32,774 nucleotides of DNA from a virus, in the IMG/VR virus record IMGVR_UViG_3300025120_000271, positions 1 through 32,774 of that record; one strand, written 5' to 3'. The position numbers and the translations under genes were made by a program. This document shows, in pieces, positions 630 through 24,985 of this stretch. The first letter of the stretch is position 1. Each line of letters opens with the position of its first letter. Under the pieces are notes generated by a model. The model was not told where the DNA came from, ran no database searches, and was given only the letters and a program-made list of their open reading frames with translations.

Positions 630-1970
630 ATGACATTTACAAAAGCAGCGGAGTCTGGTAATATCACCAGATTTGAAATATATCCTAACTTATTTGAAAG
701 CGAATCTGTTGACGAAAAAAATAAAAAGAAACCAACTTCTTTACTAGGCGGTGCTGTTGAGTTATATTATTATGAAAGTATCTTTGAAAATAGTGTAAAG
801 ATAACTACACAGATTGTTGATACTGGAAATGCTCTGCCAGCAGATGATGGAACTGGTGGACTTGTAGAACTACTTGATGGTCTTAAAGTTGGTGGCGGAG
901 AAAAAATATTCTTGGACTTTGAAGATAATCAAGGAACAAAATTAAAGTTCTCTGAAGAAAATGCATTATACTTAAATCAACTTCGTAATACAACAAACGA
1001 TTATTCAAAAGGTAAGACATTTACAATTGATGCATCATCAAAAGAGTTTTTTGATAATGAACTAACTCGTGTTGAAGAGAGATATGACGGAAAGATATCA
1101 GAGTCTGTTAAAAAAATTATGAAGGAAGTTATAAAAACTCCAAAGAACTTAGATGGTATTGAAGATACTATTAATAGCTATAATTTTATTGGTACAATTA
1201 AAAAACCATTTTGGACTATCACTTGGTTGGCTAAAAAATCTGTTCCAAAGAACAAAGGAAAGTCTGCTGGTTATCTTTTCTTTGAAACTTATGATGGTTT
1301 CAAATATAAATCTTTAGATACATTATTTGGTCAAAAACCAAAGAAAAAATATATTTACAATAACACTGCAAAAGTTCCAAATGGATATGATGGAAAAATA
1401 ATAAATCCTCCTGTCATGAGCACAAACATTCACTTACAACCTAAATTGATGATGGGTACTTATAATACTGAACACAAGCAGTTTGACTTTTATAAGAGTA
1501 AGTTTGAACTAAAACCATTTGACTTTCATAAGCAAGAGGAAGGTATTAAAACTGCTGGCAGAGATTTTGAATTCGTGAATAGTGAGTTTACAAGTAAACC
1601 ATCAAGAATTACTTACAATATATCTGATGTTGGCGGGTTGCCTGTTGGCGTTACTTTGAGTAAACAGTTAGAAAGATCTAAAGAAGTTAATTTAGAAAGA
1701 CAAAGTATTACTAATCAGGCAAATATGCGCTACAATCAACTTGGTACTATTCAAGTTCAGGTAATGCTCGTCGGAGATTTCTCCCTTCGTGCTGGTGATG
1801 TTATAGAATGTGATTTTCCAGAACTCTCTTCTAAACCAAATCAAGAATCTAGCAAGAAAATGAGTGGCATATATATGATAGCAGATGTATGCCATCGTAT
1901 TACCACCCAAAATACTCTCACATCAATTAATTTGATAAGAGATTCTTACGGTCGAAAAACCAACGCATAA
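630..1970 (+). CDS. Baseplate hub protein, gp27/gpD-like
   Basis: 446 residues, the usual size for a T4-type hub subunit (gp27 is about 390). The N-terminal third carries alternating beta segments (VELYYYESIFENSVKITTQI) typical of the tail-tube-like domains of gp27 and gpD-family hubs. The C-terminus has the family's closing beta-barrel pattern: IQVQVMLVGDFSLRAGDVI, then a GIYMIADVCHRI strand and a final LIRDSYG. It starts 6 bases after the M23-like gene and is followed 6 bases later by the CP12-like small gene, all on the plus strand, so it is probably co-transcribed with the gp5-like gene downstream. In T4, gp27 forms the trimeric torus that holds gp5. The assignment rests on motif pattern and position, not on strong sequence identity. 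Confidence 0.7.
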   Translation: MTFTKAAESGNITRFEIYPNLFESESVDEKNKKKPTSLLGGAVELYYYESIFENSVKITTQIVDTGNALPADDGTGGLVELLDGLKVGGGEKIFLDFEDNQGTKLKFSEENALYLNQLRNTTNDYSKGKTFTIDASSKEFFDNELTRVEERYDGKISESVKKIMKEVIKTPKNLDGIEDTINSYNFIGTIKKPFWTITWLAKKSVPKNKGKSAGYLFFETYDGFKYKSLDTLFGQKPKKKYIYNNTAKVPNGYDGKIINPPVMSTNIHLQPKLMMGTYNTEHKQFDFYKSKFELKPFDFHKQEEGIKTAGRDFEFVNSEFTSKPSRITYNISDVGGLPVGVTLSKQLERSKEVNLERQSITNQANMRYNQLGTIQVQVMLVGDFSLRAGDVIECDFPELSSKPNQESSKKMSGIYMIADVCHRITTQNTLTSINLIRDSYGRKTNA

Positions 1971-1976
1971 CGAACT

Positions 1977-2195
1977 ATGACAGATAAATCAATTCAACAA
2001 CATATTAATGATGATAAAACTGAACTGGATAGTCCCAATTTAAGTCCGCAACGTAGGCGTCATATTGAATCAGAACTTGGCGAACTTGAGCAATATCAAG
2101 GAAATCATCCAAACGAAGACCACGATCCCACTCCACTTGAAATGTATTGCGACACCCATCCTGATGCTGATGAGTGTAGAATTTATGAGGATTAA
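1977..2195 (+). CDS. Small protein with C-terminal CP12-like module
   Basis: 72 residues, close to the usual CP12 length of about 75. The last 23 residues run PLEMYCDTHPDADECRIYED, matching the C-terminal half of CP12 (C-x8-C then RxYxD), the part that docks on GAPDH and forms the C-terminal disulfide. The N-terminal half is acidic and helical (SELGELEQYQ) but lacks the N-terminal cysteine pair and the AWDxVEEL motif that contacts PRK. Known CP12 links GAPDH and PRK to switch off the Calvin cycle, and cyanophages carry full cp12 as a metabolic gene; here the module is encoded between two baseplate genes (6 bases after one, 2 before the next). It could still bind host GAPDH, or the motif could be reused as a disulfide-bearing virion piece. 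Function is inference. Confidence 0.75.
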   Translation: MTDKSIQQHINDDKTELDSPNLSPQRRRHIESELGELEQYQGNHPNEDHDPTPLEMYCDTHPDADECRIYED

Positions 2196-2197
2196 TA

Positions 2198-3733
2198 ATG
2201 TCTGAAGCAACATCCACTGGATTTAATCCTGAATATATTGGTGTCCTTCCACGTTGGTTTGGAAGGATAGTTTCTAGTAAAACTTGGCAAGATAACATTG
2301 TCCCCTATACTTTTTCCGACCCTAATGAAATAAAGGGTTGGGGATTTAGATATAAAGTTAGAATCTTTAGTTGGAACACTGGAGATCCTGGAGTTGTTCC
2401 TGATGAAAAACTTCATACTGCAAATGTTATCTTGCCAGTGACAGCAGGATCTGGTCACGGTGGATATTTTGAAACGCCTTCAATTGCAGCAGGAAGTATT
2501 GTAACTGGATTTTTTCTTGATGGTGAAGGTGGTCAAGAACCTTATATTGATGGCATTCTTGCAAATGCAAATGATAAAGTTCCTAAAAAGCAAGGAACCG
2601 GACCTATTGCAGGATATCAGCAATTCAATGATACATATGGTCCTAAAGCAAAAGTTCCCGACTTTTTAAAAGAACCTAATACACAACCAATACATAAAGG
2701 GGATGAAACCAGTCATCGAGATAACACAGCGTCAAGGGAAGATCAAGAAGATAAAGATGTAAGAACTCCATTAGCATCAACACGAAAGTGTAAGAAGAAT
2801 AACTCTGAAATGAAGGGTATTCAACTTACTATCAAGAATATGATTAATGAGGTTGAAAAGGCAAAGAAGAAATTAACGAAAGCACAAGGTTTTATAGGAG
2901 AAATAAACCGAATTACATCTCAAGTACGTACATTTTCTTCACGCGCTGCTCAAGAAGTTGCTTCGTATATGAAGACAATTATGGGTGGTGTTCGTGGTTA
3001 TGTATTGAAAAAAATAAAAGCAGGAATTCAAGACGTAGCACCATTTTTATTTCCTACTGATATTCCTAAATTACAACAACAATTAACAAAAAGTTTAAAT
3101 GGATTATCTTGTGGTTTTGCAAAAATAGTAAACGGATTGCAAAAAACTTTTGAGGGACTACTTGATTCTATTCTGGGTAAGTTTATTAACGCACCAATGT
3201 GTGCTATAGAAAATATAGTTTCTAAACTTGTTGATGGTGTTCTCGGACAAATCACTGATCTTATTGATAGTGTTGTTGGACCTCTTGCATCTTTTATTAC
3301 GGGACTTACAGGTAAAGCAATGAACCTGATTGGTAGTGCATTTAATGCTCTTAATATGGTAATGGGTATTCTTAAATTCTTCCAGTGTGATGAAGAACCA
3401 TCCTGTGCTGAGTATGATGAAGTTAATCAGTCTGGTCAATCAACTGATGGTGGAGATGCTGATGGTCAAGGTCAGAATCCAAGTAATAGTGATGCAGCTG
3501 TCGTCGATGGTGCTAATGGTGAAGGACAACCAACTCAAAATGAAGTTGATGCCGAGGATGGTCGAGAACCTATATCTATTGAAGTGATAGATTTTGACCT
3601 AAAAAATCAAGCACGTAATAATTCAGGTGTAACCGACCCAATTAATTTAAAAGATGATCAGAATAAAAGTCAAGAGGCAAGAAAGTTATTGGCGGGTGAA
3701 GAAGTTGATGGCGTCACATTTGAATTAGAATAG
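2198..3733 (+). CDS. gp5-like baseplate hub protein (OB-fold, no lysozyme domain)
   Basis: 511 residues. Residues about 15-130 resemble the OB-fold of T4 gp5: WFGRIVSS, then GFRYKVRIFSWNTGD, a VILPVTAGSGHGG stretch, and IVTGFFLDGEGGQEPYIDGIL, the same order of strands as the gp5 N-terminus that sits on the gp27 torus. No lysozyme domain (T4 lysozyme-like catalytic Glu region) can be seen. Instead a long helical segment (about 200-400) runs from charged coiled-coil (NEVEKAKKKLTKAQ) into hydrophobic amphipathic helices (LIDSVVGPLASFITGL), followed by a Cys pair (CDEEPSC) and an acidic Asn/Asp/Gly-rich tail. It overlaps nothing; a GAGG lies just before the start. The hydrophobic helical block is unusual for a hub protein and could contact the host membrane; that is inference. 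Confidence 0.72.
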   Translation: MSEATSTGFNPEYIGVLPRWFGRIVSSKTWQDNIVPYTFSDPNEIKGWGFRYKVRIFSWNTGDPGVVPDEKLHTANVILPVTAGSGHGGYFETPSIAAGSIVTGFFLDGEGGQEPYIDGILANANDKVPKKQGTGPIAGYQQFNDTYGPKAKVPDFLKEPNTQPIHKGDETSHRDNTASREDQEDKDVRTPLASTRKCKKNNSEMKGIQLTIKNMINEVEKAKKKLTKAQGFIGEINRITSQVRTFSSRAAQEVASYMKTIMGGVRGYVLKKIKAGIQDVAPFLFPTDIPKLQQQLTKSLNGLSCGFAKIVNGLQKTFEGLLDSILGKFINAPMCAIENIVSKLVDGVLGQITDLIDSVVGPLASFITGLTGKAMNLIGSAFNALNMVMGILKFFQCDEEPSCAEYDEVNQSGQSTDGGDADGQGQNPSNSDAAVVDGANGEGQPTQNEVDAEDGREPISIEVIDFDLKNQARNNSGVTDPINLKDDQNKSQEARKLLAGEEVDGVTFELE

Positions 3734-3743
3734 GAGAATATAA

Positions 3744-4853
3744 ATGTCACTTTTAGACTTACAAAAATTCATACCAAAGAGTGCAGTCAAAGTATCATAC
3801 TATGACAATGATGGAACTTTAGTACAAGATGCTACTCAAGACCAGGCACTTGAAGTTGAAAAACTGCGTCCTGGAACCAAATTCTTTCATAGAAATGGTA
3901 ATGGTAGTCTTAGTGAACTTGGAATAAATCAAGTTATTAATTTAGACCCAAAGAATTTATTACCTCAAGGTCCACCTTGTCCGACATCTCCACAAGCTTG
4001 TGGTCCACCAAAAGTAAAAATATTTGGTGGTAATGGTCTTGGTGCTATTGCTAATGCAATTATTAGTCCAAATTCAAGTTCTATTATTGGTTTTGATATT
4101 GTAGATCCGGGGAGAGGTTTTTTAAGTCCTCCATATGTTGAACTGATAGATGAATGTGGGAAAGGTCAAGGTGCTGCAGCAACAGCAATCATTGGACCAC
4201 TTGATGGTAGAAATGGAAATCCTACTGTATTAAATCCAGTTACAAACAACCCAGAAATTGGTGTGATTAGTGTAGTTGCAGATACTCCTGGTGATGGTTA
4301 TATTGATAAACCAGATGGAAGTTTGGGTGGTAATGAAAACGTCTGGGCAGAACCAGAAGAAGGATACATTATTGATATTGACGGAAACTATGTTGTAATA
4401 CCTGAAGGTGTTAATCCTCCAGATAATACTGCTATATACTTTCCACCAAGAGTAACTCCTGATGGAGATATTGAAGTAGACCCTCAAGTAGATACTCAAG
4501 TAGATACTCAAAACTTTCCTCAAACTTCACAACAATATCCAGTTATCCTTGAAATTGGTGATGTTGTGGTATCAGATTCTGGATTTGGATATGAACCTGG
4601 TGACACTATTAGCGTCACTCCTGATAATGGTGCAGTATTAGAACCAATTATTGTAGGAGATACTGTCACTGGAGTTATAATTAAAGAACCTGGTATAGGG
4701 TTTAACGATATTCCAATCATTGAAGTTGTATCTGACACTGGATATAATGCAGAATTCAAACCTGTTTTTAGAGTTGTTGATCCAGAAACAATAGATGTGA
4801 TTCCAGATGGAGCACAAATTATTCAAGTTATCGATTGTGTAGGTAAAGTCTAA
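3744..4853 (+). CDS. Virion structural protein with GxGF/Y-type beta repeats
   Basis: 369 residues, not recognised as a named T4 protein. Residues about 110-360 hold several degenerate units built on a glycine-aromatic turn followed by Pro and beta strand: VDPGRGFLSPPYVEL, TPGDGYIDKP, DSGFGYEPGDTISV, EPGIGFNDIPIIEV. The same kind of unit occurs inside the 1951-residue fibre protein downstream (GGSAYGVGNTLSV). A short PCP...ACGPP segment lies near residue 80, and a QVDTQVDTQ repeat near 250. A strong AGGAGA ribosome site precedes the ATG. The stop and the next start overlap (TAATG), so it is translationally coupled to the needle-like protein. Cyanophage structural operons commonly hold such a protein beside gp5; the role is inferred from position. 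Confidence 0.65.
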   Translation: MSLLDLQKFIPKSAVKVSYYDNDGTLVQDATQDQALEVEKLRPGTKFFHRNGNGSLSELGINQVINLDPKNLLPQGPPCPTSPQACGPPKVKIFGGNGLGAIANAIISPNSSSIIGFDIVDPGRGFLSPPYVELIDECGKGQGAAATAIIGPLDGRNGNPTVLNPVTNNPEIGVISVVADTPGDGYIDKPDGSLGGNENVWAEPEEGYIIDIDGNYVVIPEGVNPPDNTAIYFPPRVTPDGDIEVDPQVDTQVDTQNFPQTSQQYPVILEIGDVVVSDSGFGYEPGDTISVTPDNGAVLEPIIVGDTVTGVIIKEPGIGFNDIPIIEVVSDTGYNAEFKPVFRVVDPETIDVIPDGAQIIQVIDCVGKV

Positions 4854-5433: not shown

Positions 5434-6234
5434 ATGAGTTCAGTACACCACGGTCCAGAAAATCTATCTGGACCATTATATGTAACTAGTGAAGGATCAA
5501 AACCGAGACCGATTGTAGATACTATTGGACAACCTATTACAGGTGCTGCCTATTTACAAGGTCCAGTTCAAATTGGGAAGGATGGAGATTTTCCTTCACG
5601 TTGGGCTACCTTGATGGTTGGTACACTTGAGAATAATCAATCCGAATCACCTATTATTCCTGGTGCTCTCTGTACTGGTCTGAATAATCCATATTCTTTG
5701 GGTGTCATTGGTGATGCTGCTATTCTAGATAACCTTGATGTATCAGTAAGCATTGCTGCTGGTAAAGATATTGTTGCTCAAGGTGAGGTGATGTCACGTT
5801 GCGGTGGACATATCTTATCTGCAAAGAAAAACTTTGATATTCCTCATCCAATGAGAGAGGGTTGGAGACTGCGCCACACCTGCCCTGAAGGTCCCTCAAA
5901 CGACGTTTACACACGCGGTAGAGTATCAGGGAAAAGAGAGATTGAATTGCCTTCATATTGGAAAGGACTTGTAGATGAGAACTCAATTACAGTTATCTTA
6001 ACTCCTATTGGATCTCATCAGGACGTAATTGTAAAGAGATGGGACGAGCAGAAAGTATATCTTCAGTCAAAAGGTAATATGCCAATTGATTGCTTCTATC
6101 AAATCTTTGCAGAAAGAAAAGATGGAGAAAAACTAATTGTTGAGTATCTTGGAGAAAGTCCAGCAGATTATCCTGGAAACAATGATGAGTATTCAGTTTC
6201 TGGTTACCACTATGATAAAAAGGAGAGTGAATAA
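5434..6234 (+). CDS. Fibre/baseplate-associated structural protein, paralogue A
   Basis: 266 residues. Residues about 125-250 form a recognisable phage structural module: SAKKNFDIPHP, GWRLRHTCPEGP, VYTRGRVSG, then LPSYWKGLVDENSITVILTPIG. The next gene has the same module in the same order (KKNLPFDMPHP, GWRLRHVCIEGP, VYCRGRVSG, LPxFW-like VPSFWEGLVN), so the two are tandem paralogues. The N-terminus is different, with a LQGPVQIGKDGDFPSRWATLMVG segment typical of cyanophage fibre anchors. It follows the needle-like gene by 8 bases and overlaps the next start by one base. The module is seen in many phage tail-fibre-like proteins, but its exact function is not known to me; a beta-sandwich attachment domain is a reasonable guess. 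Confidence 0.6.
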   Translation: MSSVHHGPENLSGPLYVTSEGSKPRPIVDTIGQPITGAAYLQGPVQIGKDGDFPSRWATLMVGTLENNQSESPIIPGALCTGLNNPYSLGVIGDAAILDNLDVSVSIAAGKDIVAQGEVMSRCGGHILSAKKNFDIPHPMREGWRLRHTCPEGPSNDVYTRGRVSGKREIELPSYWKGLVDENSITVILTPIGSHQDVIVKRWDEQKVYLQSKGNMPIDCFYQIFAERKDGEKLIVEYLGESPADYPGNNDEYSVSGYHYDKKESE

Positions 6235-6932
6235 TGCCTGAAAATTTTGAAGAAAGAAATATAGGTAATAAAAATTGCGACGAACCTGTTGTAGGAACCA
6301 AACATCCTAGCTTTGACTATATTCATAGAACAACTACAGGAGATGAAGATTATCCTGAAGATGCTTGTGGAAGATTTCTTCAAGCAAAAGTAAACTTTGA
6401 TGCCATTGAAGTTATCAATGGTGGTGACATGAATGCAGAGGGTGAGGTCACCTCGAATAATGGAGGACATACCCTTTCAAGTAAGAAGAATCTTCCATTT
6501 GATATGCCTCATCCTAATAAGAAAGGATGGAGATTGCGGCATGTTTGCATAGAAGGTCCAGAGATTGCTGTCTATTGTAGGGGAAGAGTATCGGGTGATG
6601 GTGTCATTAATGTTCCGTCATTCTGGGAAGGTCTTGTTAATATGAATGATATTACGATTAGTTTGACTCCTATGGGTTCATGGCAAGAACTGTTTGTAAA
6701 AGAAATTGTAGGAAATCAAATTATTGTAAGAAATAATGCAGGTGGACCCATCAACGCAGACTATTATATTGTTGGTCGTCGTTTGGATGACGATTTGATT
6801 GTAGAATATGAAGGTAAGACTCATGAGGACTATCCAGGTGGTAACGAGGGATACTCCTTTAACTTTGAGCATAATTACGTTAAAGGTCTTATCAAGAAAT
6901 TCGTCAAAGAAAACTTTGACACAGGGTCCTGA
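6234..6932 (+). CDS. Fibre/baseplate-associated structural protein, paralogue B
   Basis: 232 residues. It shares with the preceding gene an N-terminal GEVxSxxGGHxLSxKK segment and the module PHPNKKGWRLRHVCIEGP, GRVSG, SFWEGL, SLTPMGSWQELFVK, ending with a similar GGNEGYSF tail (PGNNDEYSV in the paralogue). The N-terminal 60 residues are unrelated to those of paralogue A, as if one common head-binding region had been swapped. The start overlaps the previous stop (ATAATG), indicating coupling. A sigma70-type promoter lies inside its last codons and extends into the gap, driving the next gene, so this gene closes the late structural operon. Probable virion structural protein; role inferred. Confidence 0.6.
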   Translation: MPENFEERNIGNKNCDEPVVGTKHPSFDYIHRTTTGDEDYPEDACGRFLQAKVNFDAIEVINGGDMNAEGEVTSNNGGHTLSSKKNLPFDMPHPNKKGWRLRHVCIEGPEIAVYCRGRVSGDGVINVPSFWEGLVNMNDITISLTPMGSWQELFVKEIVGNQIIVRNNAGGPINADYYIVGRRLDDDLIVEYEGKTHEDYPGGNEGYSFNFEHNYVKGLIKKFVKENFDTGS

Positions 6933-18991: not shown

Positions 18992-19936
18992 ATGTTAAGA
19001 AGAAAAGTATTCGCCATTGACGGTGGAGCGGGACGTGCTATTGCCGCAATACCAGCACTAAAAAAATACGCAAGAAACCATCCAGACGATGATTGGGCAG
19101 TGATTGTCTTTGGTTGGGATAATTTGTTTTGGGGTATTCCTGAACTCCAAGATAGAGTTTACAGTTCTGATGTAAAAGGAATCTTCAAAAACTTGTTAAA
19201 AGATTCTGACATTATTACCCCAGAACCTTATAGAATCTGGGAATATTTCAATCAAAAGTGCTCTCTTGTAGAGGGTTTTGATAAACTTATCAACGAAACG
19301 GAAGATCATTCTGACCTTGGAGTTCCAGAGTTAGTTTTAAGTAAAGGAGAAGAAAAGAACGCTTCTAATGTTCTTACAGAAGTTAAAAATCAACAAAATA
19401 AAAATCTTACTATTGTAATCCAACCTTTTGGTAGGTCAGCAAGAATTGACAATGGAGATATTATTGATGACAGTACTAGATCTTTGGAACCCGGAGTCTA
19501 CTATAAACTTGTAAAAAAACTCTCTCAGAAGTATAATATTGTTTTCATGGGAGAAGGTGAATATGCACAGTTAATTTCTCAAGAGGATCAAATTAGTGCC
19601 AAACTACAGATGGATCTCCGTGGTTGGGCAACAATAATTGAAGGATGTGATTACTTCATTGGTTGTGATAGTGTTGGTCAACATATGGCACGGGCATTTG
19701 ATAAACCAGGAACAGTTATTCTTGGTTCAACTTATGCAGTAAACATCACATATCCAGATCATTTTCAAATTATTGAAAATGAAAACGTAAAGAAAGAATA
19801 CTCACCAATTCGCATTTGTGGTTTAGATTCACATCTAGCAGATCGTAAGAATGATAGATGTATGGAATTTAGTGATAAAGATGTTGATAACATCTATGAG
19901 GCAATCGTAAAAGATATTAAGGAGAAAGTAAAATGA
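18992..19936 (+). CDS. GT9-family glycosyltransferase (heptosyltransferase-like)
   Basis: 314 residues, near the family's usual size (about 320-350). The N-terminus GGAGRAIAAIPALKKYARNHP (11-31) matches the GGxGDxxxxxPxLxxxxxxxP nucleotide-sugar start of ADP-heptose LPS heptosyltransferases. The C-terminal half has the GT9 signature, YFIGCDSVGQHMARAFDKPG (221-240), where D226, S227 and H231 stand for the usual D-S/T-G-x-x-H, then VILGSTYAVNITYP. GT9 enzymes use ADP-heptose. It overlaps the carbamoyltransferase by four bases (ATGA), so the two are coupled, and it is preceded by a late-type box. Substrate specificity is inferred from the adjacent heptose pathway; related GT9 members can use other sugars. 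Confidence 0.8.
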   Translation: MLRRKVFAIDGGAGRAIAAIPALKKYARNHPDDDWAVIVFGWDNLFWGIPELQDRVYSSDVKGIFKNLLKDSDIITPEPYRIWEYFNQKCSLVEGFDKLINETEDHSDLGVPELVLSKGEEKNASNVLTEVKNQQNKNLTIVIQPFGRSARIDNGDIIDDSTRSLEPGVYYKLVKKLSQKYNIVFMGEGEYAQLISQEDQISAKLQMDLRGWATIIEGCDYFIGCDSVGQHMARAFDKPGTVILGSTYAVNITYPDHFQIIENENVKKEYSPIRICGLDSHLADRKNDRCMEFSDKDVDNIYEAIVKDIKEKVK

Positions 19937-21666
19937 CTTACAACGTATTAGCAATCAATCCTGGACATAATGGTTCTGCTGCCCTTGTATCTGGTGGTAA
20001 GTTAGAACTTTATATCGAAGAAGAAAGGATGACTCGTCAAAAATATGACGGTAATCCCTTTCGTGCAATGATGTATATTATGGATAATTATATCATTAAT
20101 GAACTTATTATTGCAGGAACTGGACAAGAAAATCATCGTCTTCCCTGGACTGGAGAAGATTCTTATGGTGCTTTAGTTAGAAAGTATTATCCTAACGTAA
20201 AAATCTCTAGAGTTGGATCAAAACACCATGACGGTCATGCGTATAGTGCGTTCTACAATTCTGGTTTTGAAACAGCAGCTGCGGTCATTGTTGATGGTAG
20301 CGGTAGTATCTTTAACTTTAGATTTTCTCATGATCCAAAAGATAGTATTGAGGCATTTGAAACTGAAACAATTTACAAGTGCTCTTATGATGAAATTAAA
20401 GCAGTTCATAAGATTGGAGCAAATAATGGCATTCCCCATATTGATGCACCAGACTCTCAAATTGATGGCACTGTAACTACCGTAAAAGCATACGAAGCAG
20501 TATCAGAATATCTTGGTTTTGGATTTATTGATGCAGGAAAAACTATGGGTCTTGCGCCTTATGGTAAAGAAGATCCAAATATTCCAAATCTCTTCTATAA
20601 AGATACTGGAAGAGGTGATAAAAATATTTTTATGCCTCATTATCCAGCAGGAGCACTTATTGATTCCGAACGAATTCCTTATCTGAAGAAAACTGAAGAT
20701 TCAAGAGATTGGCATCATAATCCTTCAAAAGTTACAGATGCTGCAAAAAATCTTGCATGGAAAGTTCAACAAGAAACGCAAGAAAGAGTTGGCGATTTAA
20801 TTGAGAAGGCAGTAGATATTACTGGCGAAGAGAATATTGTTATCTCTGGTGGTTATGGTCTAAACTGTGTTGCAAATTATTATTTCAAAGAAAGGTTCCC
20901 CGAACTTAATATCTTTGTTGACCCAGTAGCACATGATGGCGGAACTTCTATTGGTTGGGCAAAGCATAACTCATATCAGCATTGTAAAAATCAAAACCTT
21001 GATTTTGAAACTGATCCATTGACTACTCTTTATCTTGGACCAGACTATGAGTACACTGTAGAAGACTTGGAGTATTTCAAAGATATTGAAATCTCTGATA
21101 CAGATAATACTTCTATCGCTAAACTGATTAGTGAGAAGAATATTGTCGCAATGTTCCAAGGAAGATCAGAAGCAGGTCCTAGAGCATTAGGTAATCGTTC
21201 TATTCTTTATGACCCCACAGACATCAAGGGCAAAGACTTTGTTAATAGTGTGAAAGGTCGTGAATGGTTCCGTCCCTTTGCAGGAACTGTACTCAAAGAA
21301 CACGCTAGTGAGTGGTTTGACCTTCGTGGTATGGATGAAACTCCATATATGATGTATGCAGTAGAACTTCAAACAAAAGCGATTGGAGAACTTCCTGCTA
21401 TCACTCACGTTGATGGAACATGTAGAGTTCAGACAGTAACTGAAGAACAAAATAAAAACTATTATGATTTAATTAACGAGTTCTACAAATTATCTAATGT
21501 TCCTATATTGTTCAACACAAGTTTCAATCTTGGTGGTCACCCGCTAGTTGAAACTCTTCAAGACGCGATCAACACCTTGAGGAATAGTAAGATTGAATAT
21601 CTTTACTTCCCAGAAATGAATAAGTTAGTAACACTTAAGAATGTAGAAGAGACAACTGAAGAGTAA
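19933..21666 (+). CDS. NodU/CmcH-family carbamoyltransferase
   Basis: 577 residues, full length for the family. The motifs appear in order: INPGHNGSAAL near the N-terminus, EEERMTRQK, KHHDGHAYSAFYNSGF (the His pair for carbamoyl phosphate and metal), VDGSGS, GKTMGLAPYGK, ISGGYGLNCVANY, DPVAHDGGTSIGWA, then the C-terminal Sua5-like domain with GRSEAGPRALGNRSIL, RPFAGTVL and NTSFNLGGHPLVET. Family members carbamoylate O-sites of sugars with carbamoyl phosphate and ATP (NodU, CmcH, and a Pseudomonas enzyme that carbamoylates core heptose). It starts four bases inside the GT9 stop. The natural reading is carbamoylation of the heptose added by the neighbouring GT9. A bidirectional terminator follows the stop. 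Confidence 0.88.
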   Translation: MTYNVLAINPGHNGSAALVSGGKLELYIEEERMTRQKYDGNPFRAMMYIMDNYIINELIIAGTGQENHRLPWTGEDSYGALVRKYYPNVKISRVGSKHHDGHAYSAFYNSGFETAAAVIVDGSGSIFNFRFSHDPKDSIEAFETETIYKCSYDEIKAVHKIGANNGIPHIDAPDSQIDGTVTTVKAYEAVSEYLGFGFIDAGKTMGLAPYGKEDPNIPNLFYKDTGRGDKNIFMPHYPAGALIDSERIPYLKKTEDSRDWHHNPSKVTDAAKNLAWKVQQETQERVGDLIEKAVDITGEENIVISGGYGLNCVANYYFKERFPELNIFVDPVAHDGGTSIGWAKHNSYQHCKNQNLDFETDPLTTLYLGPDYEYTVEDLEYFKDIEISDTDNTSIAKLISEKNIVAMFQGRSEAGPRALGNRSILYDPTDIKGKDFVNSVKGREWFRPFAGTVLKEHASEWFDLRGMDETPYMMYAVELQTKAIGELPAITHVDGTCRVQTVTEEQNKNYYDLINEFYKLSNVPILFNTSFNLGGHPLVETLQDAINTLRNSKIEYLYFPEMNKLVTLKNVEETTEE

Positions 21667-21696: not shown

Positions 21697-22350
21697 TTAT
21701 AGTGAATTTGCAAAGTCTAACAGACTATCAAAGACTTGAACATCTTTATATTTGGTGTCAAATGCTTTGAGATATTTCTTTTCAGTATCTGCACCTCTTC
21801 CCGTTCTTACAAGAACTGGAGTTGATTTTGCTTTGATTGCCATTTTGATGTCTTCAATAGTATCACCAACGTAATATCCTTTTGAGAAATCAACTCCCAC
21901 TTCATTCTTTGCCTTATTCAACATACCAATGTTTGGTTTTGCATAAGGATCTTGAGACATATCAGATGTATTAAAATAAAATCCATCAATAGAGAAAATA
22001 CCTGCTTGTCCAAATTGTTGCATCATATATTGCATAACACCTTGCACATCTTGTTGAGTCAATAATCCTCTTTGAATGTTGGGTTGATCCGAAAACAATA
22101 TTACTCTATGACCGATAAGACGAAGTTTGCGGATTGCTTCTAATGAACCAGAAATAAACTGAACGTCTTCGCGTCTTTTGATTACATTTTTCCATTCATT
22201 AATCACACCATCCCTATCAATCCCAATTACAGATTTAGTAAATGTGGATGGCCAATCCTCGGACGAATATTGAGATTGTTGGTTCATAAAAGGAGAACCT
22301 TCTTGCTGCGGTTGTGTTGCAGACACTGTTTTAGTTTGATATCTTCCCAT
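21697..22350 (-). CDS. gmhB: D,D-heptose 1,7-bisphosphate phosphatase-like HAD protein
   Basis: HAD superfamily. I see IDRDGVINEW (catalytic DxD), then GSLEAIRKLRLIGHRVILFSDQPNIQRG, matching GmhB's LxxxGxxLxxxTNQxGIxRG, then KPNIGMLNKAKNEVGVDF and YYVGDTIEDIKMA (metal-binding VGDxxxD). The pattern fits D-glycero-D-manno-heptose 1,7-bisphosphate 7-phosphatase, the third step of ADP-heptose synthesis. The Cys/His zinc loop of typical GmhB (CPHHP, C-x-C) is missing. Three starts are possible: 22410 (237 residues), 22350 and 22287. I prefer 22350 because it leaves room for the divergent late boxes at 22388-22397; 22287 has an AGAAGG-like site. The N-terminal leader is not part of the fold. Confidence 0.75.
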   Translation of the reverse strand: MGRYQTKTVSATQPQQEGSPFMNQQSQYSSEDWPSTFTKSVIGIDRDGVINEWKNVIKRREDVQFISGSLEAIRKLRLIGHRVILFSDQPNIQRGLLTQQDVQGVMQYMMQQFGQAGIFSIDGFYFNTSDMSQDPYAKPNIGMLNKAKNEVGVDFSKGYYVGDTIEDIKMAIKAKSTPVLVRTGRGADTEKKYLKAFDTKYKDVQVFDSLLDFANSL

Positions 22351-22387
22351 TATTATGCTATTATTTCTATACCAATTGTAGATTATA

Positions 22388-22397
22388 TATTTAAATA
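22388..22397. promoter_or_regulatory. Candidate divergent late promoter element
   Basis: The ten bases TATTTAAATA read TTTAAATA on both strands (minus 22388-22395, plus 22390-22397), seven of eight matches to TATAAATA on each strand. The plus box lies 34 bases before the ATG at 22432 and the minus box 37 before the 22350 start of the phosphatase. It repeats the overlapping layout seen at 13913-13924. Confidence 0.45.
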
Positions 22398-22431
22398 AAT
22401 CAAGAGGCATTATGATTATACTTGGACTTTA

Positions 22432-23855: not shown

Positions 23856-24216
23856 AGCAGGAGAATCTATTAAGTATGTTCCAAAAGGATGGGGATACGA
23901 AAAATGGATTGTCAACTGCGAAAAGTATTGTGGTAAGCTACTTTATATTGTAAAAGATAAAAAGTGTTCTTGGCACTATCACATTAAAAAAGATGAAGTA
24001 TTCTACATTCAAAGTGGTAGGATACGAATTTGCTATGGATGGAATGATGACATTGAGTCATCTACCATAGCAACATTAGAACGTGGAGATAAGTTCCACG
24101 TTCCAGTTGGTATGAGACATCAGATGTACGCTTTAGAGGATACAGAACTATTTGAGTTCAGTACAGAACACTTTGATTCTGATAGTGTTCGTGTTATTCA
24201 AGGAGATACTCTTTGA
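23836..24216 (+). CDS. Cupin-domain sugar enzyme (isomerase/epimerase-like)
   Basis: Cupin motif 1 is complete: HYHIKKDEVFYIQSG (H-x-H-x4-E-x6-G). Motif 2 is GDKFHVPVGMRH (G-x5-P-x-G-x2-H), with Ala where many cupins have Asn. This metal-binding barrel is typical of mannose-6-phosphate isomerase type II tails, sugar isomerases and C3/C5 epimerases. I choose ATG 23836 (MTSSQPRAGES, 126 residues), preceded by AAGGGG; an upstream in-frame ATG at 23785 would add 17 residues and lengthen the overlap with the HAD gene from 20 to 71 bases. It ends 23 bases inside the minus-strand HldD gene. Role inferred from neighbours. Confidence 0.7.
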   Translation: MTSSQPRAGESIKYVPKGWGYEKWIVNCEKYCGKLLYIVKDKKCSWHYHIKKDEVFYIQSGRIRICYGWNDDIESSTIATLERGDKFHVPVGMRHQMYALEDTELFEFSTEHFDSDSVRVIQGDTL

Positions 24217-24985
24217 CAGTTTTGAATTTATAATCACCCCATTCTTTTTTAGCACAAGTATAAGTTTGATACTTACTTTTTAGGTGCTCAGGGAATGGGA
24301 TGTATTCAATTTCTCCAAAATAATGTTCTGCAACACACTCTGCAACATGTTGAAAACTCACTGGATTGCTGGTTCCAAGGTCATAAATGCCAGAACCTTT
24401 ATCATTATCAAGAACAATCTTGATAATATCTCCAACCCAAATAAAGTCTCGTAAAAATTTATCAGAACCTTCAAATAGTTCAAGTTTACCAGTTTCTTCA
24501 ACTTGTTTTGCAAACTTACTTACAGGACTTGCTTGGTTTCCTTTATGATCTTCAGGTGTTCCATAAACATTGAAGTATCTAAATCCTTGAATGAGAGGAA
24601 ATCTATCCATATTATCTTGAACCCAATAATCAATAGTCACTTTGGATAGTGCATAATAATTAAGTGGATTGATGATGCCTTGTTCGTTTCCATATACGGA
24701 AGCGGATGAGGCATATTTTACTGGAATATTATACTTTGCTGCTTTCTCAAATAACCATTGACTAAATTCAATATTGTTAGAGAATATTTTCTTTAGATTA
24801 GTTTCTACAGTTGACGATATTGCACCTTGATGAATGATAAGTTCTACTTCGTCCCATGATTTGAATGTTGATCTAAAATTTAAACAATTATTCTCTTCTA
24901 TTTTAATTACTGTTTTTCCTCTTTGCTCTAAATGAACTAAAAAGTTAGCGCCAATAAATCCCTTTGCACCAGTAAGAATAATCAT
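24194..24985 (-). CDS. hldD: ADP-L-glycero-D-manno-heptose 6-epimerase
   Basis: 263 residues, extended SDR fold. GAKGFIGANF is the NAD(P)-binding GxxGxxG start at the N-terminus; IIHQGAISSTVE matches HldD's IxHxGAxSSTTE; SSASVYG and Y111-ALSK-115 form the catalytic Ser/Tyr-x3-Lys; RYFNVYG...HKGNQAS and LELFEGSDKFLRDFIWVGDI closely follow HldD's RYFNVYGxxxxHKGxxAS and LFEGSxxFxRDFVYVGDV. This enzyme turns ADP-D-glycero- into ADP-L-glycero-beta-D-manno-heptose, the form used by heptosyltransferases. It is encoded on the minus strand and converges on the cupin with a 23-base overlap. It is shorter than bacterial HldD (about 310). Identity of the family is firm; the enzyme may be truncated at the C-terminus. 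Confidence 0.9.
   Translation of the reverse strand: MIILTGAKGFIGANFLVHLEQRGKTVIKIEENNCLNFRSTFKSWDEVELIIHQGAISSTVETNLKKIFSNNIEFSQWLFEKAAKYNIPVKYASSASVYGNEQGIINPLNYYALSKVTIDYWVQDNMDRFPLIQGFRYFNVYGTPEDHKGNQASPVSKFAKQVEETGKLELFEGSDKFLRDFIWVGDIIKIVLDNDKGSGIYDLGTSNPVSFQHVAECVAEHYFGEIEYIPFPEHLKSKYQTYTCAKKEWGDYKFKTVKEYLLE

Follow-up and report, generated by a model that had tools for sequence, protein, structure and literature searches.

The CP12 protein carried by cyanophages has been proposed to act as an inhibitor of the Calvin cycle, with carbon being directed to the pentose phosphate pathway (PMC3906501; PMC5082946). A 2014 review described classical CP12 as absent from the marine picoplanktonic group and cyanophages as exceptions to the classical features (PMC3906501), and Sullivan et al. 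2010 listed 'near gp5' among the variable positions of cp12 (PMC3037559). In Synechocystis, a CP12 without the N-terminal cysteines, which is impaired in PRK binding, gave wild-type-like growth in diurnal light with glucose, whereas a CP12 without the C-terminal pair resembled the deletion (PMC11257934).

We analyzed a stretch of viral DNA of 32,774 nucleotides, called the window here. The ORF at 1977-2195 on the plus strand encodes a 72-aa product, MTDKSIQQHINDDKTELDSPNLSPQRRRHIESELGELEQYQGNHPNEDHDPTPLEMYCDTHPDADECRIYED, which ends in the residues YCDTHPDADECRIYED and has Cys58 and Cys67 as its only cysteines. This ORF, its predicted tail and its two neighbours are located as follows.

1977..2195, plus strand: cp12 gene, 72 aa, C-type CP12 (phrog_627), assigned from Pfam CP12, phrog_627 and 420 phage records
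2130..2192, plus strand: predicted C-terminal GAPDH-binding tail, residues 52-72, with Cys58 and Cys67, from alignment with 3zdf and 6gfo
630..1970, plus strand: upstream neighbour, tail protein (phrog_350, 8e-83)
2198..3733, plus strand: downstream neighbour, gene 5 homologue, baseplate hub/tail lysozyme (phrog_1922, 1.8e-60)

Pfam CP12 (PF02672) was the sole Pfam family found by hmmscan for the 72-aa protein, with 49.8 bits (E 5.9e-13) against a curated cut-off of 22.7 bits, and the domain match spanned residues 6-71 of 72, which are model positions 5-70 of 70. The protein also matched phrog_627 of the PHROGs over its full length (E 2.8e-26, profile positions 2-75 of 75). An earlier note on this DNA had read the product as a 'C-terminal module' of CP12. 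The two matches uphold the CP12 identity and the CP12 tail, but not the restriction to the C-terminus, as the homology runs the full length. When the protein was used as a tblastn query, matches were obtained in 420 phage records, nearly all from phages of Synechococcus or Prochlorococcus, many of them labelled 'CP12', 'carbon metabolic regulator' or 'CP12 carbon metabolic regulator'; the nearest named phage was SynMITS9220M01, at 69% identity. These comparisons indicate that ORF 1977-2195 is a real gene encoding a complete CP12. The kind of gene, its C-terminal-only cysteine form and its site near gene 5 are all already known. The record, a 32.8 kb genome fragment, contained a single cp12 match; the rest of the genome may hold another cp12.

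The C-terminal tail reads C-x8-C-R-x-Y-x-D, as the earlier note had described, and its Cys58/Cys67 pair aligned with the CP12 tails in the solved cyanobacterial GAPDH-CP12 structures 6gfo and 3zdf (2e-4 with a single sequence, about 1e-6 with a profile). The pattern arose in only 8 of 1,000,000 sequences made by shuffling the same residues and is therefore not due to chance. A tail no better than shuffled sequence had been named as what would refute the CP12 reading, and the CP12 match stands; a chance match was ruled out by this count together with the Pfam E of 5.9e-13. In an alignment of close relatives, Cys58, Cys67, Arg68, Tyr70 and Asp72 were invariant and the GAPDH-binding tail was the most conserved part of the protein. 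AlphaFold predicted helices at residues 6-17, 24-43, 53-60 and 65-70 (mean pLDDT 88.7), that is, a helical hairpin followed by two short C-terminal helices. A Foldseek search of the PDB with this model ranked a CP12 chain (6gfo) first but with a non-significant E of 0.46, which is expectable because the protein is small, flexible and helical.

The N-terminal cysteine pair is missing, as had been claimed, both cysteines of the whole protein being C-terminal, and the AWD_VEE motif is absent as well. We compared this form with that of 82 phage relatives, made up of 80 metagenomic loci and two named phages. In all 82, the only cysteines were those at positions -15 and -6 as counted from the C-terminal end, and 81 were 72-73 aa long. 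On the host side, CP12 was detected in 58 of the 61 genomes of the family of one Synechococcus genome (Synechococcus/Prochlorococcus type), and the 31 host-family CP12s that were examined all lacked AWD_VEE and, within the domain, the N-terminal cysteine pair. Of 79 CP12 loci from other cyanobacteria, 73 carried both features; the sample is biased because the loci were gathered by the tail pattern. A scan of genome contigs with phage-specific patterns gave no matches, probably because of that specificity; a later scan with the tail pattern did give matches. Since only the C-terminal pair occurs in the phage relatives and in the host family, the phage protein is of the same form as the CP12 of the hosts themselves, and by sequence it is best described as a full-length CP12 of C type, as carried by the marine hosts. 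The earlier claim of a truncated CP12 was thus ruled out by a match that covers 6-71 of 72 residues and by the identical form in hosts.

With high confidence we propose that the virus is a T4-like cyanomyovirus and that 1977-2195 is its cp12, an auxiliary metabolic gene whose product would act by blocking host GAPDH. The product would be a small helical-hairpin protein whose tail is closed by a Cys58-Cys67 disulphide upon oxidation; the oxidised tail would reach into the region of the active site of host GAPDH (Gap2), blocking the enzyme. The Calvin cycle would thereby slow down during infection, and the pentose phosphate pathway and nucleotide synthesis could draw on the NADPH and sugar phosphates left over. 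The AWD_VEE motif is linked to PRK binding. Because this motif and the N-terminal cysteine pair are absent, the phage CP12 probably acts mainly on GAPDH, like the host's own CP12, and for the lack of these PRK-related features a full GAPDH/CP12/PRK complex is doubtful. The Synechocystis result on N-terminal versus C-terminal cysteines agrees with a mode of action through GAPDH only. We infer the GAPDH binding and the metabolic effect of the phage protein from the literature, and the GAPDH binding suggested earlier is, together with the CP12 identity, supported as probable.

The cp12 gene is under strongly purifying selection, the median dN/dS being 0.068 over 18 comparable pairs, a rough value with many pairs saturated at silent sites. 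In an unrooted tree of 32 sequences, a supported branch (99/98) separated 23 phage rows from 9 host rows, and the N-terminal half reads SPQxRRH in most phages vs KVRH in the host form. This difference and the well-supported separation of the phage sequences from the host ones would be in keeping with a partner other than GAPDH, the protein moonlighting, for example, as a chaperone or in the regulation of another enzyme. We consider such a partner very unlikely, given that it is the GAPDH-binding tail that is conserved most.

The earlier note placed the gene among baseplate genes, and cp12 is indeed flanked by the phrog_350 tail-protein ORF at a gap of 6 bp and by the gene 5 homologue at a gap of 2 bp. 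Gene 5 was downstream of cp12 in 80 of the 80 best viral loci, and a tail-protein gene was directly upstream in 79 of them, the remaining locus having only 89 bases upstream; as the loci were the top-scoring matches of the query, the sample is weighted to close kin. The same order of tail gene, cp12 and gene 5 occurs in the named phages S-RSM4 and SynMITS9220M01, and in P-SSM4, S-RIM8, ACG-2014b and S-SZBM1 a few extra genes (cpeT and others, or tRNAs) separate cp12 from gene 5. An unusual setting is therefore not supported: cp12 beside gene 5 is common, and its description dates from 2010 (PMC3037559).

Other features of the window were observed in the same analysis. The phrog_1922 profile (gene 5, hub/lysozyme) falls with its N-terminal half on 2198-3733 and with its C-terminal end on 3744-4853 (plus strand), so gene 5 is seemingly divided into two adjacent genes. 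The adjacent plus-strand ORFs 5434-6234 and 6234-6932 both match phrog_17490 and phrog_28536 and are probably a tandem duplication. At 19933-21666 (plus strand) is an ORF for a Nol-like carbamoyltransferase, with matches to Pfam Carbam_trans_N and _C; this is an auxiliary gene already known from cyanophages. Within the plus-strand region, two minus-strand ORFs, 21697-22410 with a weak match to phosphoheptose isomerase and 24194-24985 with a match to nucleotide-sugar epimerase, are perhaps a sugar-modification insert.

The tight packing of cp12 against its tail-gene and gene 5 neighbours, together with the gene order kept in 79 of 80 loci, would favour a virion protein, either part of the tail or baseplate or a GAPDH ligand carried by the particle, that came to adopt the CP12 fold. 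Against this, cp12 lies away from tail genes in S-TIM5, MED4-213 and S-SRM01, with talC adjacent or close by in S-TIM5 and MED4-213, and the residues of the GAPDH-binding tail are invariant in close relatives. Furthermore, the virion protein table of S-SZBM1 contains ORF 65, the neighbour of cp12, but lacks ORF 64, which is cp12 itself, and the six non-structural virion proteins that have been named for S-CREM2 do not include CP12. Mass spectrometry can miss small proteins. A structural role of this kind appears extremely unlikely. The earlier suggestion that the tail is virion-borne is likewise not supported: cp12 has a start and a stop codon of its own and forms an ORF apart from its neighbours, and a virion-borne CP12 found no support in the proteins listed for either virion.

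As to timing, cp12 belongs to the middle genes in P-HM2, a phage outside our gene-order comparison (PMC5082946). No T4-like late promoter (TATAAATA) was found near cp12, the nearest being about 11.7 kb downstream; the count of this motif in the window was at chance level, as were sigma-70-like sites in the first 7.7 kb. In the literature examined we found no direct statement on cp12 timing in phages with the order tail gene, cp12, gene 5. We give hardly any credence to the idea that, where cp12 sits between these genes, CP12 is made late along with the structural proteins, is carried in or on the virion and blocks GAPDH at once on injection. That the gene is a decayed, non-functional CP12, once complete but now without the function of its N-terminal half, as the missing N-terminal cysteine pair and AWD_VEE might suggest, has next to no probability, because the intact gene is under purifying selection (dN/dS about 0.07), its length is constant at 72-73 aa in 81 of 82 relatives, and the same form, without both features, is found in Synechococcus/Prochlorococcus-type host CP12s.

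The gene in the window is a clear-cut case of a widespread viral gene that is believed to change how carbon flows in the most abundant phototrophs of the ocean. It is a point of some value that a cp12 in a structural operon may differ in timing from a cp12 kept near talC and psbA. Compared with cyanophage CP12 (PHROG 627; T4-GC 337/63, Sullivan et al. 2010), the protein has the same length, full-length homology and the same C-terminal-only cysteine pair, and its gene is near gene 5 as in many members (P-SSM4, S-RSM4); ordinary sequence divergence is the sole difference. The host CP12 of Synechococcus/Prochlorococcus type (CP12-C type) likewise has 72 aa, only the C-terminal cysteine pair, no AWD_VEE and the same tail, but identity is 39-49% and the phage sequences group apart. 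With the classical CP12-N/C of other cyanobacteria and plants the protein shares the GAPDH-binding tail C-x8-C-R-x-Y-x-D, whereas the N-terminal cysteine pair and AWD_VEE belong to the classical form and neither occurs in the protein of the window.
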